This document shows, piece after piece, positions 9,002-59,369 of a stretch of DNA of 64,000 nucleotides (position 1 is the stretch's first letter; the number at the start of each line of letters is the position of its first letter). A model generated the notes under the pieces. The model was not told the DNA's origin and made no database searches. It saw nothing but the letters and a program-made list of their open reading frames with translations. The position numbers were made by a program, and so were the translations under genes. The DNA comes from Tubulanus polymorphus (Eukaryota > Nemertea > Palaeonemertea > Tubulaniformes > Tubulanidae). Where the stretch lies: the NCBI RefSeq assembly GCF_964204645.1, contig NC_134028.1, positions 25,394,153 to 25,458,152 on the forward strand, in the 5' to 3' direction.

Positions 9002-9402
9002 TTAAACCCTTTCAGTGCTCTGACTAATTAATCCTCAGGATCCAATTGTGAGTTAGAGTTAACTCTGAGTTAAAGTTAGTTCATTTTCGATGAGTTAACT
9101 CAGGGTCAAATTTTAACTCAGAACTATGGAATTGGACCCTGAAGTGCTGGAGATAATTTGAAAGTTTTAAAAAATTCCACCCCAGTGTGTTGCGAATAAC
9201 GGACTTACTGCAATAGTGCGTCTACACCGCGGTGCGGTGTATCGTTAGTTACTAATATTCTAGTATTAGTTACTATTATTTCACACCAGGTGCTGCCATC
9301 TTTCAATACAGATAAAAACTAATCACGTTAACACTGATACGCGATGATGTGGTGTATTAGCGAAGTCCATCACTAATTTACACACCGCACTGAAAGGGTT
9401 AT
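9002..9402. mobile_element. TTAA-type MITE with nested foldback
   Basis: Left end TTAAACCCTTTCAGTGC and right end GCACTGAAAGGGTTA. The body matches the 57094-57389 copy, including CTACACCGCGGTGCGGTGTA. Around 9035-9140 it is interrupted by a smaller palindromic insert containing 'gagttaactctgagtt' and 'cgatgagttaactcag', bounded by CCAATTGTG and CTATGGAATTGG. Relatives of that insert are at 28604-28692 and 63278-63373. Confidence 0.75.
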
Positions 9403-11130: not shown

Positions 11131-11456
11131 CAGGGTCCCTACAACTCCTCGATTCTTTAAAAACTCTTAAATGGAAAATGCTTTTAGAGGTGCCTGAAAC
11201 TCCTTTGAACAAAATTCTCGAAACTCCTTCAATTTTTAGAAAAAGGCTATTAGAAATTTTTGTCTAGTTTTATGATCATACAGTTTGTGGGTTTTTCACC
11301 CTTATAGGGGGTTACCGAATTAGAAACCAAGTTTATGTAGTGTATAGGATAAAAATTTGCTTGTTAGAAAGTACCATTTTAGGAGGAGTCTACTGTAATT
11401 TGGATCTAGTAATGATGAAGACATTTCCTCAAAATTTGAAATTTATACAAATATCA
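11131..11456 (+). mobile_element. hAT-like repeat, family C, disrupted
   Basis: Starts CAGGGTCCCTACAACTCC and follows the family C order to AGGAGGAGTCTACTGTAATT. It then runs into a 60-bp tandem array instead of the usual right end. Confidence 0.65.
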
Positions 11457-12064
11457 CTCTCAAATCAAAAGATCAGACTTGAGCGGAGTCTACTGTACCA
11501 TCCAACTCAGATATCACTCTCAAGTCAAATGATCTGACTTGAGCGGAGTCTACTGTACCATCCAACTCAGATATCACTCTCCAGTCAAAAGATCAGACTT
11601 GAGCGGAGTCTACTGTACCATCCAACTCAGATATCACTCTCCAGTCAAAAGATCAGACTTGAGCGGAGTCTACTGTATCATCCAACTCAGATATCACTCT
11701 CCAGTCAAAAGATCAGACTTGAGGAGAGTCTACTGTACCATCCAACTCAGATATCACTCTCCAGTCAAAAGATCAGACTTGAGCGGAGTCTACTGTATCA
11801 TCCAACTCAGATATCACTCTCCAGTCAAAAGATCAGACTTGAGCGGAGTCTACTGTACCATCCAACTCAGATATCACTCTCCAGTCAAAAGATCAGACTT
11901 CAGCTGAGTCTACTGTACCATCCAACTCAGATATCACTCTCCAGTCAAAAGATCAGACTTGAGCGGAGTCTACTGTACCATCCAACTCAGATATCGCTCT
12001 CCAGTCAAAAGATCAGACTTGAGCGGAGTCTACCATCCAACTCAGATATCACTCTCCAGTCAAA
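11457..12064 (+). repeat. 60-bp satellite array
   Basis: About ten tandem copies of a 60-bp unit containing GAGCGGAGTCTACTGTACC, CATCCAACTCAGATATCAC and TCTCCAGTCAAAAGATCAG. Copies differ at one to four positions and the last is shortened. 60 is a multiple of three, so a 122-residue open frame of 20-residue repeats appears, but it has no coding context. The GAGTCTACTGTA core is shared with family C, immediately upstream. Confidence 0.95.
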
Positions 12065-12409
12065 AGAAATCTCAAGTCAGACAAATTTTTGCAGACTCAA
12101 GCGCAGTCTACTGATTAATAGATTGACTGAGACGTTGATCATTGTCGTTACGCTTGACGCGGACGACATTTGAAGAAGAAACGCGTCTAGTCAACGACGC
12201 ACGTGCGCAGTTCAGACCGACGAGAAAAAATTCTGCAGCAAAAATTATGCACATCTATGTCGATGGAGACGTAGCTCGGTATTTCCTGGTAAGCCTGTTG
12301 ATTGAGATTGCCGTTTGCTTCCTTAAATTATCAGGCATCACCATGGTAACCTGCCTGCTGGCTGGTTGCATGTTTGGACCCGGCATCATCGCTGCCTCTT
12401 CGTTCCCCT

Positions 12410-12584: not shown

Positions 12585-13991
12585 ACTCTTAAAGGTATCG
12601 ATATCTGATGGTTCGGGGGTCAACTATAATCGTTTTATCGATTTACGGCGTATGAACAGATATCATAATTCGTCCTTTCTGGAGCTGGCCTTCGACTGGG
12701 TGAACTTCGGTTCTCCTAGTTAGCTGACTACTGGTCGCGACTAAGGCAAAAAAATAATACCTCGTTTCTCCTAATGGGCGCATCGATACAATTACTCGGT
12801 CAAAATTTAGTTCATTTTCGATAAAGCTTTCTGAATCCAGCTTTCATCTTTATTTTTGCCCTCCCGCATGAAACTTGAAAGGTTTCAAATACTCGCTTAA
12901 TGACGTCATATTTTCTCGGGGAATTTTCTTATATAACTTGGAAAAATCAGCAAAAAATGGGAATTTGTGAATTGGTTTGAAAGTTGTCCTGGTGAACTTG
13001 GCGCGCACTCCTGTAATTACAAGATAAAACAGCTTGAATCATTCTTTCATCGGCGTTTCACGAGCCTTCCACCGAACCTGCCATATTTTTTTCCGAGGGT
13101 CACCCGGTATATTTCACCTTTTAGAAGGGAGAGTCACTTCTCTTCTTGTCTGCGAGAATCGAATTAAATCTTCATTGCGTAATACAATAACGTAATTTGC
13201 GTCTAAGACGTTTTTCTCTCTCTCTCGACCCGGTTTCAGTTGTCGTTGACATTTAATTTGTCTTTGTTATCGACGCGTTTTTAGCGCGCTTCCTATTTTG
13301 TCGACACCCTTCGTTTCTTATAGTCTTGCGCGTGCGATGTTCGTGAAATTCAGTCGCGAAAATTCATACGATCACCGCCGGTATCCGAGTTGCGCCCGCG
13401 GGCGATTCACATGGAATTTTCAGGTATGCAAGAGAAACTTTTTTCAACTGCTAGATGCTAACTTTAGGGGCAGCTCACGGTCGATGCAAGGTATGAATTC
13501 ATCGTTTTTGAGCCTTTCTTAAAGTTTTGGTCGGTGGACTCAGATAAAATGATAGGGGGGATTTTGATCGGGGGGCATGAAGATATTTGTAATAAATAGT
13601 TGAGACTATTTCCAGTCTTGATGAATATCATCGATAGAAACCCACAATTTCAATTTAAACAATTGCGGTTGTTATTTTCTCAAATTCCTGGAATGGAATC
13701 CTTCCACCCATCTTGAGAGTTTATTCGAAAATGACGGTTGTAGTTACAATTATAGTATGGTGTAAAATTAGCTAGAATTTTTAATGTAATTGCTATTGGT
13801 TACTTCATGTTTTCAATGAGGGCAACAATTCAAACTTAACCGTTTTTGGCTTAAACTTTTTCGTGAAACTGGACCCTGAAGGAATTTTTTTCGCGGATGA
13901 CAAAATCAGACAGAAGTTTCAACTCGGGAGAAAAACCAGGAATTATATTAACAGTATCTTTAACGATATGAAATAAGGGCAGATTTTATAG

Positions 13992-14240
13992 TTAGTCCTT
14001 GGAGTAATCAATGGTTAGTATATGTTGAAGGTAAATTAGTACGAGGATAAAGAATTTTGCGATTCTCTCAAAGTTAAAACGATGGCTGGTATCATAAGGG
14101 TGGCGCTTGGTTTGGCAATTGATAATGTCACGTTTATGTTCTTTAATGCGAGTGTCCGTCCGTCCTGTTTCTCCTGTTTCTCCTGTTTCTCCGATATATA
14201 TTTTTTTCAATAACACGACATGGGATCTTGGAAACACCAA
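13992..14240 (-). mobile_element. Penelope-like element fragment (GIY-YIG)
   Basis: On the - strand an 82-residue frame contains YIGETG, then two extra ETG triplets, then RTDTRIKEHKRD. 'YIGET(S/G)RT...R..EH' is the start of the GIY-YIG endonuclease found at the C-terminus of Penelope-like retroelements. The extra ETG copies come from a 9-bp tandem expansion. The frame then loses similarity, and no reverse transcriptase is recognisable nearby. It is a dead remnant. The assignment rests on this motif alone. Confidence 0.5.
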
Positions 14241-51574: not shown

Positions 51575-54500
51575 CTAAGCGACGACGTTGTCGGTTAAAT
51601 TAAGAACGCCACGTTTCGTTAACGCCTCCGTCAACATCGTGTAAAACTGTAACTGTTCCTCGGGTTTCAACATGAATACGTTCTGTAATAGTTTACCGGG
51701 ACTCGGCGCTCTGCAAATACATAAACAAATGCACGTCTGAAATTTCGAGAAAAACAGCAAAAACTACCGCTAATAAGGCCATCTAGTAGGTACACACGCT
51801 AATTCTAGCTCACGTTCAACCCCCTCCATCGCCTTTCCAGCAAAATTTAGTGGAATTTAGCGTACAAAATAGTCGAACCCGCTCGAGACATCTTAGTGGG
51901 AACAAGCATTATGTTGATGACTTGTTATAAACTTAGTAAACCGAATAGGAAATACACACCATTATTAGCACTCAAAAGATAGAGATGACTTATGATGACT
52001 TAAACAAGTTTGACTGCATATGAATTATGAATCTGGCTCGTCAATTGTTAGGGATGTTTTGTTACAAATTTTGAGAACTCCAATAAATTGGACGGCTCGT
52101 ATTCAGAATGTTCGTACCTTATGAAGCTGCTGAAATATACATTTATAAACGTCGCCATGAGTAACTGGCAATCGAATCTGTCCATCAATCCACCGTGACC
52201 GGGAATCGTATCGCCGAAATCCTGAATAAAATTCAGAAAGAAAATCCATTTTATATGTTCCATGAGCAGTTTCGCTGGGGATATAATAACACGAGATTAG
52301 CATGATTAACAGGCATTATCAATATCAGAGTTCATTTTCACTCGAATTAGAAGCAGGTTTCTAAAAACTACGGAATTCGAACAAAGGGGAAAAATGGATG
52401 AATTCAGGATTTTTCATATTTCTCTAAAACATCATGTATTTCATATTTTTTCCAAAAAAAAACCAAGGATTTATTTTTCACATTTACTTCCGAATGATTT
52501 TTCCAAATTTTCACATTTCATATAATGCCAAGGTACACAATAACATAAGCAGTTACTAATCACAATCTGTGGAATGCAATTTCATGAACTTTTAACATAG
52601 CTTGTGCATAAATTATGAGCTGCATAGTAAAAGGCATAAAAGCAGATATAAATATTTAGAATTTTTCACAAATTTTTCACATTCTTCATATCAATCAAAC
52701 CCTCGGTAACATCAATCAAGGAGGCGCTTACTTTGATTTTGAACGCTCGTTTGAAGCCGCTCGCGAAGAAGCCACCGAACGGGCCGATTATCGAAGCGAA
52801 CAGCGACATCGCTACAGAATGCAACAGGAATGGATACGTAGTGACTGTTTTCATCGGAATAAAGAACTGTAAAACAAAACGTAAATTGCATCAAAATACA
52901 CCGGTATACGTAACATCAGTAATTCAGATGTTTGACCAGTGATGATCTTTCATTGATAATTGATTTCGTAGTAGACTTGGTAAACGTGATAAATTTCGGT
53001 AATTATCATTTGACAATTGTAACGTTAGGAGTCATTCATTTATTACGTACACATTAGGGGAGGGGTGGCCATCTTTCCGCTCATTTACAAATTTGATTGT
53101 AGTTTACAAAATGAACCCAGCCCACTAGGGAAAACGAGGTATCATTTTTTCTTTTGGGTCATTCATTTATTACGTATACATTAGGGGAGGGGGAGGGGTC
53201 AGTGCAATTGCGTACTGTAAAATTCAAATTTTATGCGTACGTAATAAATGAATGATCCCTTATAAGTTCTTGAGATGATTAACTCGGAATTTCACACTAC
53301 GACAACTAGGCTTTTTAATTTTTTTTTTTTTTTAGAATATTTTGGACTTTTTTTCCATGTTTTCACTTACGAGAAATTTCGGTATTTGAATCTCGGTTAG
53401 TCTGAACACAGCTGGTATTTCGCAGGCCATCGATAACGCGTTCAATTTGGCCGAATACTCAATCGGACAAATGAAGAAATTCCACTGCAGCAATACGTAT
53501 GACATCTGAAAATATCAACATAATTACCGCAATTAAGTGATAGTAAATGCAGCGCCTACAGACGCGAGCTTACTGTCCCGTCTCTGAAAAACTGTCGATA
53601 TCTCAATAACTCGTTGGGATAAATTCTCCAAAGGACACCCTTGCGCCTGCCAGTGAAAAGATCCACTGCGACCATCCGCAAACAATTACGTCACTTAGAC
53701 CCATAACCTACGTGAATGGCACATGAATGGCGTATGTACTCTCAACCAACGCGAATGGCGCATGTACAAGGCCATCGTCTCTCCAAGTCGCAACTGTACG
53801 TGTTGCGTTGCAAGCAGTCGCGAATCGCCCTACGGGTACGTCGTTTGTTTTGGAGATGTAAAACTCACCCCGAGTCCGAAGAGAATCGCCCCTACCGGTA
53901 CGTCCATCGTTATGGAGATGTAAAACTCACCCCGAGTCCGAAGAGAATCGTCGACACGGCTCCACCGATGAATCCTTCCCATGTTTTTTTCGGCGATAAC
54001 TTGATGAGCGGAGTTTTACCGAAGAAAAATCCGAACATGTACGCCATGATATCGTTACAGATAATCATCGATACCGGCAACAAGAACCTGACGAGAAATA
54101 ATACGAATAAATCAAGAATCAACCGAGCAATTAACCTTAGAAATAATTCAACTAACATCATCTTACCAGATCAAACCTTGGAAAATGTTCTGCATGATGA
54201 AATGAGACTGAGTAACGACTATCAACAGAGTTACGTGAGTCCATCCGAACTGAAAATATGACGACCAATCATTTTTACTTCAGATATTTTCTTCTGAAGC
54301 ATATAGGTATACACTACTATACTTAAAAAGATATTCATTAGTGCCTCCTAGATGATAGAAGGATCTTTTTGTCACCATTTCAAAGCTATGACTATAAACT
54401 ACAAAGCGAAGACGACGCAAAGCGTTTTTCAAAACCCTATCTTAAATAGTTTGGAAGTTATATAAGGATAATGTCATACAGATCATGTAGCACAAGTGGC

Positions 54501-57500
54501 CCACGGGTTAAAGATTAAAGAAATTCAGGAAATTCATGGATTAACAGGTCAGTCAGGTGCCATATCTAAGTCAGGGGGAGTGAAACAGATGTTCAAAGGA
54601 TGCTACCCTTCGATACTATGACAAAGACCTATTGTTCTATCACAGAATTTAACTGTATTCATAGTTCATGACCACAAACTATATCAGACCTACACCATTC
54701 AGTAACTAAAACACACTGTTTTGATATAAATAGGAATATTCTATGGTATATGTTTAATCAATGCTAAAGTACTGCATGTTTTAATAGCTGCGCATCTGCT
54801 CCCAAAACATAACCCATTTATGACTAGATTTGAATAATGAAACACATGGCTGAGCGATGTACAAGGCAGAAATGGCCTATAAATCATATGCATCCTCATG
54901 CTTTCGATTTTATAGGGATTAAACTGAATGTTTTTTCTAAATGACTGTGATTTTAGTGTTTTTTTTTCTTACCAATGTGAACTGTTGAAGATAGTGTTTT
55001 TTAACTAGACTGCACACGAACCAGACGAATCCGGCGACGTACATCGAGAATGCTATAAACCGGTGATAGGTCATCAGGGGTAATAGGAAATGCTGCCAAA
55101 ATAGAAAAGGGACAAACATTTCGGTTATTAGTAGAATAACCTGCAGAATCAGACGAGAAGGATAGATTAAAATCAAAATCCAAACTGAACGCTGAAAATT
55201 TCAAAAATCAAGAATTAAGATCGAAAATTAAAAGGCATGCTATTTGGATGCTGAAACACTGTCTTTTAATTCTTGAAAAATTCTTTTACGAAATTGGTAT
55301 TTGAATATGGTGGTTTTTCTCATTTTTTCGTCAGACTACGACAAGGTTAACAAAAGTTATCAACACGTACCTCTTTCGATAGCAAAAAGCTGAAATAATC
55401 GACGAAACTTTCTCCGTAGAAGAAATAGTTCGACGTGATTAAGAAATACCAACTCAACGTACGGAACCACGGTAAATCATGAGATCGGTAGACGACGTAA
55501 CCGATTGTGATAATCTCATGAAAACATTTGATTTGTATCGCTAAAACCTGTAATAGAAACAAATACACTGAGAAAATCGACAAATCGCAGTTCCATACTA
55601 TAAATTATCAAATAATTTGTCATTCCAGAATTTGAAGATTTTTTGAGTATTAATCCTTTCAGTGCATTTAAACCACAGTGCGGAGTATGAATTGGTGATG
55701 GACTTTGCTAGTGCACCGCATCGCGGTGTATGGATGTTATAAGTAATTAGTTTTAATCTCCAATGAAAGATGAAAGCATTTGTCAAACTAGTGAAATATT
55801 AATAGTAATTAACGATACACCACGCTGCGGTGTAGATGCACAGTTATTAACTTAAATCAAGGATAAGTTTTTTTTACTCTGGAATAATGTGTTGTCGTTA
55901 TTTGAATACGTACCAGTAGAACTAGCGCAATCGGTCCCAGATAAATAACAAACCCGAATCCAAATATCATAACCCAGCTGAATATTCCTCGAATTATCCA
56001 GTTTTTCCATCTAAAAAAAAAAGCGAAATTTCAACTGTGAATTAATACAATGTAGGAATCAGGAATTTACTTCATCGTCGAAATAACGCAATGTAGGAAT
56101 TTATGGATTTATTTCCTCTTCGAAATAATTAAACACAGTTCGTAAAATGTAGCTAAGAAAGGCTGTATCATTTTCATTTGACCTGAACGTACAATCATTT
56201 AGGTGGATAGGGTCAGGGAAATCGAACGGAGTATTGGGCCTCAGGTTTTCTCGACCCCCCTCATGCGTTTTGTATTTCGAGAGCCTCTGGTGCTCAATTT
56301 ATCAATGATACAAATGTGAAGAATTATCGACCCTATCGTTGGAAAAAGTTCGGGTCTCCTTATCACCCTGGATCTGTACCCGAACCCGAGGAAGTTTATT
56401 TTCGATAGCAAAAAGCTGAAATAGTCGACGAAACTTTCTCCATAGAAGAAACAGGGTCTCCTTATCACCCTGGATCTGTACCCGAACCCGAGGAAGTTTA
56501 TTATTTTGAGCAGGGTGGGTGTGGCTGCAGCTGTATTCATGTAACAACGACTGCGAGTAGAGGAATGCCTAGCTGTATGCTAGATCAATACACACATCTA
56601 TATCAATTTACAACTATCATCAAATTCTATTCTCTTTCAATACAATCATGGCACGTGTACGCACTGACAGGCTATGCGTGTTATCAATCAATAACGCAAT
56701 AATCATCGAACAGTGAATGACAGCGGTATTCAAACCTAATCATAGCTTTCCCTTTCGAGACACACGTATCATAAAAAAACAAATCCTTTTACCAGAGCAT
56801 AACCTTTATTTTCTATGATGATAATGTAGGATGCAATCCCATTGAAATAATGATAATATACATTTGGTTTTACCAGAATTTGGGACCTTTTTATCGAAGG
56901 AGTATGGGGCGGGGGCGGAGGGGGTGGGTACTTAACAGGACTTATTGATTTAACATTCAGCGCGTGAGTGTGATTTAGATGATCGACAGGGTCCAGCATC
57001 ACACATTTCCAGATTTGACAACACAGAAGCTTTTAACTTTCAACATATTTCATACCATTCCTCCTGAAGACGGTTTTATATTTCATTCCTGATTCAACCC
57101 TTTCAGTGCTGACTAATTAATACCATATAGTGCTGGAGAAAATTTGAAAATTCTCAAAAATTCCACCCTAGTGTGTTGAACAATGGGAATACCACTATAG
57201 TGCGTCTACACCGCAGTGCGGTGTATCGTTAGTTACTAGTATTTCACTATGTTTGACACTTTCTGCCATTTTTCAATAGAGATAATTACAAATTACTAAT
57301 TACATCAATACACCGCAGTGCGGTGTACTAGCAAAATCCATCACTGATTTATACACCGCACTGCGGTGTAGACGCACTGAAAGGGTTAAGATGATTATAA
57401 ATATCGAAACGTAGAATAAGTATATCAGCTCAAGGAAACATTTCAAACTGTTTTTATTCATGGATCTTATCATCTTTAGCAGATGCCCTCAGTATTTCAC

Positions 57501-59369
57501 TGCTAGTTTTTTGTCAATATTTGTCATGTTTTATATGCACGGTAACTGCGGTAGTTCTATCTAGCAGCTATTTCCCGAGAGACGATGTTTACACACACTG
57601 TGACATATACTGTCGGTATTTCAAACAGTTGCCATGAAAACCACCGGGCTGAGACTATTTCTGATCCAGGGCTATCTGTTTAAATTCAATTAATAGGTCA
57701 GACGTCTCTTTTGGGATAAAATTAATTAACGAAATCGCGTCATCAAATGCTACATCAGTGTGCTCAGCAACAGATTTTAGAAGGGCAGCCACCCCTTTCA
57801 TTTTAACATCCACCCCTCTGAAAATCAGCCACCCCTTATAGAATATCTGCTGCCCCGACCAGAGTGGATTTCAATTAATTCTACCAATGCTTATAATTGC
57901 TTTGCAAAATATTGAGCTAATGTGAAAAATAGAAGATTACACAAAAATTAAGCTTAATTTTTGTGGGGATCAAAAGCCTTGCTACTTGAGCCACCATGAT
58001 GTCATACACTTAACAATGAATGCAACCCCTTTAAAATGCCAGCGCATGGAAAACACTGTCTATAGGCTATAGGCTATAGCTCTATATCGATACAAGAGTT
58101 CTTGACATAATTTTTTTCAAAATTTTGAAATATTGCTTTTTGATAGATGAAATATATTTGTCAGGGATACGTTTTGATGAGGCAATCTACTGTTCATAAC
58201 GGACAATCATTGTCAGGAATGCATTTTAATGGCAATTTATTTTTCATTGCAGAACAATATTTCTGTTTGGGAATATATATTGATGAGGTAATTTATTTTA
58301 CAAAGAGGATGAAATATCATTTCAAAGACCCTTTTTACCCAACAGGCAGTAGTAGAGAGACAATTTGGATTGAAAATAATTCTCGTGTAAAATCAATTAA
58401 ATTTTAAGGCCTAAATTTATTTATTTCTTAAATTCTATTAGGCCTAAGCGCTTCAGAGCCTTCAGGAATACTAATAATAATCATTAGGCCTATTATTAAT
58501 TATTTTCTAAAAACACTATTCATGGTTTATCAGAATCTAAATTGCCGTTGATTTTAATCTCAGTAGACTTTCTGATTAATAAACTGATTTTAATTACAAT
58601 CCCTAAATCAGGAATTCACGCAGCGCTGATTTATCTGACTTACCGCGGAGGAATTCCCTGTAAACTTGAGTTAAGTATTTCGGGTGTATTATCAGTTCCC
58701 TGTGGTATAGTGCTGGTCGCGTTCAAATCTAACCCGGGAGGAGAATTCGGATCCTGCCCAGACTCCTCTTGTTCTTGCATCGAAGACTTGCCCTAGAAAA
58801 GAAAATAGATTATTAGGTCAATGAATTTGGCCCTGTAAGAAAGTAAAAAATTCCAGCTTTATTGAAGCACTATGTCTGACAATGCACTTTCCCTGAACCC
58901 TAAAACCTAAGAGCCAATGATGAAATAATTGTAGCCATGGGTATATGGACCAGTGATTGAAGCCCTATTCTATGGTAGGACCTGCCCTGGTCTGTTAAAA
59001 TTAGAATATTAGTCAATTTAACTGTTATGTTAGCCTTATTTATTAGCCTAAGTCAGTGTTCAAGAGTAAGACACCACAACAAGTAAAATAGATAGTTTTG
59101 CTTAAAAAATTCTTGGATCCTAGAAATTAAACTTCATTTACTCCCATACACCTTGCTAAAATGTTTCCCATCGAATCCTTTTCAGAAGAGAATTCCAGAA
59201 TCAATCGAAAAAAACCAATCGAAAAAACTTAGCGGAAGTGAAACAGACTACATTTTCAGGGGTAGGTCAAATAAATAGCTATATTTACCGCATCTGCATC
59301 ATTTGACAGTTTCTCCGAGCTACCCTTCAGACCGCTATCATCCTGAACTCTTCTTCTAACATCAGTCAT
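51575..59369 (-). CDS. CDS1/2: phosphatidate cytidylyltransferase (CDP-diacylglycerol synthase)
   Basis: Integral ER enzyme that converts phosphatidic acid and CTP to CDP-diacylglycerol, feeding phosphatidylinositol synthesis. Exons: 59289-59369, 58644-58792, 55914-56010, 55371-55547, 54973-55092, 54167-54249, 53931-54087, 53371-53505, 52732-52866, 52118-52221, 51575-51710, closing in phase to 457 aa (human CDS1 461, CDS2 445). Acidic, low-complexity N-terminus starting [13 protein letters not shown], then several membrane segments (from about residue 85), with conserved [43 protein letters not shown] and [12 protein letters not shown]. The complete CTP-transferase signature S-G-F-K-R...K-D...[11 protein letters not shown] spans residues 369-395. 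One invertebrate gene probably represents both vertebrate paralogues, so I do not choose. Intron 7 contains a duplicated splice donor and intron 2 a fragment of exon 4 (see findings). Confidence 0.97.
53027..53260. mobile_element. family E MITE, with duplicated left end
   Basis: In CDS intron 8. Starts AGTCATTCATTTATTACGTA and the same left end recurs near 53157. The right end is GCGTACGTAATAAATGAATG then ATCCCTT. Shares ends with 44101-44254. Confidence 0.8.
53822..53950. repeat. 62-bp tandem duplication across CDS exon 7 donor
   Basis: 53822-53883 and 53884-53950 are near-copies. Both contain GGAGATGTAAAACTCACCCC then GAGTCCGAAGAGAATCG. In the right copy the CACCCCGAG part is the exon 7 / intron 7 junction (- strand CTCGGG|GTGAGT). 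The left copy therefore carries an identical second donor 62 bp into the intron. Confidence 0.9.
55650..55850. mobile_element. TTAA-type MITE, diverged
   Basis: In CDS intron 3. Left end TTAATCCTTTCAGTGC, GCACCGCATCGCGGTGTA, 'gaaatattaatagtaatt', ACACCACGCTGCGGTGTA. The right end is eroded. Confidence 0.65.
56352..56502. repeat. CDS exon 4 fragment between perfect 49-bp direct repeats
   Basis: 56352-56400 and 56454-56502 are identical 49-bp repeats (start GGGTCTCCTTATCACCCTGG). The 53 bp between them match CDS exon 4 at about 55375-55427, with three substitutions. On the - strand it still reads [17 protein letters not shown]. The flanking repeat has no other copy in the window. Confidence 0.9.
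57094..57389. mobile_element. TTAA-type MITE, best complete copy
   Basis: In CDS intron 2. Left end CAACCCTTTCAGTGCTGAC and right end GCACTGAAAGGGTTAA are inverted repeats. Three near-perfect palindromes of the form ACACCGCA(G/C)TGCGGTGT lie inside. The TTAA flank suggests piggyBac-type transposition, an inference from target site and CCCTTT ends. 296 bp, no coding capacity. Confidence 0.8.

Follow-up and report, generated by a model that had tools for sequence, protein, structure and literature searches.

The closest described counterparts of the structure studied here are short tandem duplications with templated inserts that arise when breaks with protruding ends are joined (cNHEJ or Pol theta-mediated end joining; PMC5730883, PMC8355091). 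Our locus is like them in that a duplication of tens of base pairs encloses filler from nearby DNA, the overlap at the junctions appears minimal and small errors lie beside a junction. It is unlike them in that there is one 53-bp filler from 1 kb away, while the inserts made by Pol theta are generally shorter than 25 bp (PMC12426944) and typically take the sequence beside the break as their template. Insertions in rice also include duplications with inserts of nearby DNA, which a review ascribes to asymmetrical nicks (PMC7407515). As summarised there, these patch-mediated insertions (Vaughn and Bennetzen 2014) resemble our locus as natural duplications joined to a piece of nearby DNA, with asymmetrical nicks and end joining as the proposed route. 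They differ in the organism and in their donors, which according to the same summary lie within 200 bp for that class.

Templated sequence insertion polymorphisms of class 1 and class 2 (PMC5110952) share with our locus a short piece of another locus copied into a break. In class 1 there is a poly(A) tract with a polyadenylation signal, together with a LINE-1 site (TTTT/A); class 2 shows no target-site duplication, the donors are distant, and neither class fits fully. At our locus both ends of the insert lack a poly(A) or poly(T) tract, which speaks against class 1, and a 49-bp duplication is present, which speaks against class 2. No paper on template switching from exon to intron with direct repeats came up in a literature search.

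Repeats and exon fragment in intron 2

We analysed a stretch of 64,000 nucleotides from Tubulanus polymorphus, further called the window. The structure lies in intron 2 of a gene whose roughly concatenated exons match Pfam CTP_transf_1 (E 3.2e-42); a PDB search with the same concatenated exons gave no match. We take the product to be a CDP-diacylglycerol synthase-like protein, a name based on its residues, the Pfam match itself being to CTP_transf_1. The features were located as follows.

55371..55547, minus strand: exon 4 of the gene for the presumed CDP-diacylglycerol synthase, with the fragment's source at 55374-55428 (placed by reading frame and splice sites; Pfam CTP_transf_1)
55914..56010, minus strand: exon 3, between donor and insert (reading frame and splice sites)
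56011..58643, minus strand: intron 2, host of the insert (exon 2 donor at 58643, exon 3 start at 56010)
About 58644-58792, minus strand: exon 2 (reading frame and splice sites)
56352..56400, minus strand: R1, the left one of the two 49-bp direct repeats, 100% identical to R2, with no other genome match found
56401..56453, minus strand: 53-bp insert from exon 4 (match with 1-bp overlaps 56400-56454), 95% identity to 55374-55428, E 3.3e-16
56454..56502, minus strand: R2, the right one of the two 49-bp direct repeats, identical to R1

Two marks of an end-joining scar were found, namely two direct copies of host sequence around a filler and a filler with an identified template. Repeat finding gave two copies identical at 49/49 positions (56352-56400 and 56454-56502). 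Even with up to 3 mismatches allowed, none of 100 shuffles contained a chance match to the 49-mer. Between them, 56400-56454 matches 55374-55428 of exon 4 in the same orientation at 52/55 positions (95%; genome-wide E about 3.3e-16). One base pair is shared at each junction, so that the insert proper comprises 53 bp. The copied segment opens with the C ahead of the initial Tyr codon in YFFYGE and reaches as far as the AAA codon located 3 nt ahead of the donor site of exon 4. Source and copy are about 1.03 kb apart. The initial annotation had reported perfect repeats around a piece of exon 4, which we confirmed. Codon comparison likewise bore out its count of three differences, two of them silent (GAT/GAC, TAC/TAT) and one changing Tyr to Cys.

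The structure was read from the assembly sequence, and an assembly error was weighed as well. We regard it as extremely improbable. The copy departs from exon 4 at three sites and the whole structure covers 151 bp, which a collapsed repeat or a misjoin of exon 4 would not readily yield, and the stretch contains no N.

Donor and junctions

We searched the 267.8-Mb assembly with a 176-bp stretch containing the structure (E up to 10) and with 1041 bp of context around it. Neither search returned a match besides exon 4; as counts of further copies, these results are lower bounds. A second CTP_transf_1 gene was not found in the assembly, as every exon match falls in this one gene. Judged by these searches of the assembly, the structure therefore does not belong to a dispersed repeat family or transposon, and no second, paralogous donor is needed; both candidates were rejected. 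The initial annotation had suggested looking for other copies of the 49-bp unit and for a paralogue carrying the substitutions, and neither was found in the assembly. The donor is then the working exon 4 itself. If it was another allele, or exon 4 before it changed, the silence of the other two differences is as expected.

The right junction was compared between exon (GAAATAGTTCG) and host (GAAAAAGTTCG), and 10/11 bases agree (GAAAWAGTTCG). A match as good occurs in about 0.8% of random position pairs (p about 0.008), which is only suggestive, since two junctions were examined for microhomology. The feature is located as follows.

56342..56355, no strand: host sequence at the edge of R1 that shares 10/11 bases (GAAAWAGTTCG) with exon 4 where the copy ends (junction comparison, p about 0.008, suggestive only)

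Compared with a clean switch within this motif, the joined product is short of 4 bp (TTCG or equivalent). The base responsible for the Tyr-to-Cys change is the third base from the right junction. It lies 3 nt from the join, and therefore it is probably a junction error and not evidence on selection. The hint that a separate donor had once been under protein selection is thus not needed: no paralogue or further copy was found, exon 4 serves as the donor and the only amino acid change sits at the junction. At the left junction we looked for microhomology beyond 1 bp and saw none.

A break driven by a hairpin was also considered. An 8-bp stem (GTTCGGGT/ACCCGAAC) is present around R1, but folding was no better than in shuffled sequences (z -0.2), and this candidate was rejected.

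Proposed repair origin and age

We think it likely that the structure is the scar of a single germ-line event in which a double-strand break was repaired by an error-prone route. It most likely belongs to the short tandem duplications with a templated insert, a known kind of mutation, of which this is an unusually clean case. Before the event, intron 2 would have carried a single 49-bp copy without filler. Overhanging ends would have come from a staggered break, or from two nicks spaced by about 49 nt, and fill-in of both ends would have produced the 49-bp duplication. Before joining, one end may have copied 53 nt of exon 4, about 1 kb off, on the same chromosome, the sister or the homologue. 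Rejoining of the copying end would then give the order repeat, exon fragment, repeat. The polymerase may have acted in Pol theta-like end joining or in template switching at replication, two routes that would look alike at this locus.

Template switching during repair, or an insertion with a long duplication, had been proposed in the initial annotation, and it is the best explanation of the exact layout and the single nearby donor. The repeat-insert-repeat layout is exact, fragment and exon have the same orientation, the donor is 1.03 kb away and belongs to the sole CTP_transf_1 gene found. The short two-copy tandem duplications seen elsewhere in the surveyed DNA, described below, and the rice insertions also speak for such a repair event. 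Error-prone joins often show a small loss or a base change beside the junction, and here a 4-bp loss and one base change lie beside the right-junction motif. Against a repair scar it may be argued that a single 53-bp piece exceeds the usual length for Pol theta, that the donor is farther away than usual and that the left junction appears to have an overlap of 1 bp only.

A short reverse-transcribed piece of mRNA, captured at a break with or without retrotransposon machinery (class 1 or class 2), would also place exon sequence in an intron. The fragment is wholly exonic and stops 3 nt before a splice site, the duplication is long, and cDNA templates have been described for templated sequence insertions (PMC5110952). 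We nevertheless consider an RNA or cDNA patch unlikely. The fragment lies inside one exon and so contains no spliced junction, its ends lack poly(A) and poly(T), and the donor lies on the same chromosome at a distance of 1 kb, which favours a DNA template. The target-site duplications usual for LINE elements are shorter than 49 bp, so that the present duplication exceeds them.

An origin in two steps would require that the 49-bp duplication or the fragment came first and the other later, or that a 102-bp unit was duplicated and then partly lost. Short tandem duplications are indeed present elsewhere in the sampled DNA. On either side, however, the boundaries of repeats and fragment agree to within 1 bp, therefore a single event is simpler, and we hold the two-step origin to be distinctly unlikely.

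The repair event may have been fairly recent. The repeats differ at 0/49 positions and the fragment carries two silent differences and one at the junction. If all changes followed the event, and assuming that exon 4 evolves at a quarter of the neutral rate, the probability of no change in the repeats is about 0.16 for two differences and about 0.07 for three. Gene conversion between the repeats would not be needed, because 0 versus 2-3 differences is only weakly unlikely. Of the earlier suggestion of a recent event or gene conversion, the first part fits and the second is not required. A donor allele that already differed at both silent sites would explain all of the data, with no change since.

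Predicted cassette exon and occurrence of similar structures

The spacing of the repeat units is 102 bp, a multiple of 3, and therefore a single open frame of 112 codons (56241-56579, minus strand) covers repeat, fragment and repeat. No evidence for a function of the insert was found, and its fragment carries neither splice site of exon 4. A scan for bacterial-type promoters and terminators found nothing; the models are bacterial and do not apply here.

We considered whether the insert may be spliced in frame between exons 2 and 3, adding about 55 residues, which would be compatible with a repair origin. The predicted exon is as follows.

56386..56550, minus strand: hypothetical in-frame cassette exon across the insert, 165 nt (acceptor 9.0, donor 4.1, consensus matrix)

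The predicted acceptor at 56550 scores 9.0, like the acceptors of the gene itself, the frame is open in the right phase, and at two thresholds, chosen after the scores were seen, intron 2 holds no other candidate locus. The predicted donors at 56385 and 56379 (exons of 165 or 171 nt) are weak, with 4.1 and 3.6 against 5.6-10.1 for the scored donors of the gene. The same predicted donors occur in R2, where they would give exons of 63 or 69 nt without the fragment. As the fragment begins within exon 4 and stops 3 nt short of the donor site, no splice site came with it. In the window, the looser threshold yields 0.2-0.34 such candidates per kb, and the cassette exon is therefore a weak lead. A functional cassette exon is, in our judgement, very improbable. 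The same small chance applies to recruitment of the scar as an alternative exon that keeps the frame (from 56550 to 56386 or 56380), which would place a second copy of an 18-residue segment ahead of exon 3. It would be a new exon that templated repair had made by copying an exon farther downstream.

We scanned 264 kb for repeat-insert-repeat structures, that is the window and ten 20-kb samples (200 kb, four contigs), with classification by eye. Among the matches listed, the others lay in tandem arrays, or were apparent repeat families or low-identity matches. The clean case was single among the matches listed in these 264 kb and thus gives no hint of a special mechanism, and a systematic one was rejected. 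A rough TRF filter gave 18 short two-copy tandem duplications in the 264 kb, several of them inside repeat elements and one, of 62 bp, in the same gene. The latter (53822-53950, copies about 91% similar) includes both the 3' end and the donor site of an exon, approximately the seventh. It yields two GTGAGT donor sites 62 bp apart, the second of which would shift the frame if used.

Other repeats were observed as well. Inverted arms of 139 bp and 42 bp (55650-55841 and 57199-57389; 80-88% complementary, motif TACACCGCAGTGCGGTGTA) flank exon 3 and the insert. They probably belong to a family of short palindromic elements, with similar pieces at 9266 and 27425. The repeats of GTCATTCATTTATTACGTA at 53027-53260, direct and inverted, resemble a short foldback element. 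A 60-bp tandem array lies at 11451-12067 (10.4 copies, 95% alike), with a period divisible by 3. In the sample taken from contig C4 near 11.0 Mb, dense arrays with tandem units of about 64 and 29 bp are present (L012 and L013; in joined coordinates, from about 1557 onwards and at about 13529-14014).

In summary, this finding changes no concept, as the kind of mutation was already known. It is a clean natural case of break repair copying coding sequence into introns, which is raw material for exon shuffling, and its frame-keeping 102-bp unit could serve for asking how frequently scars of this kind turn into exons.
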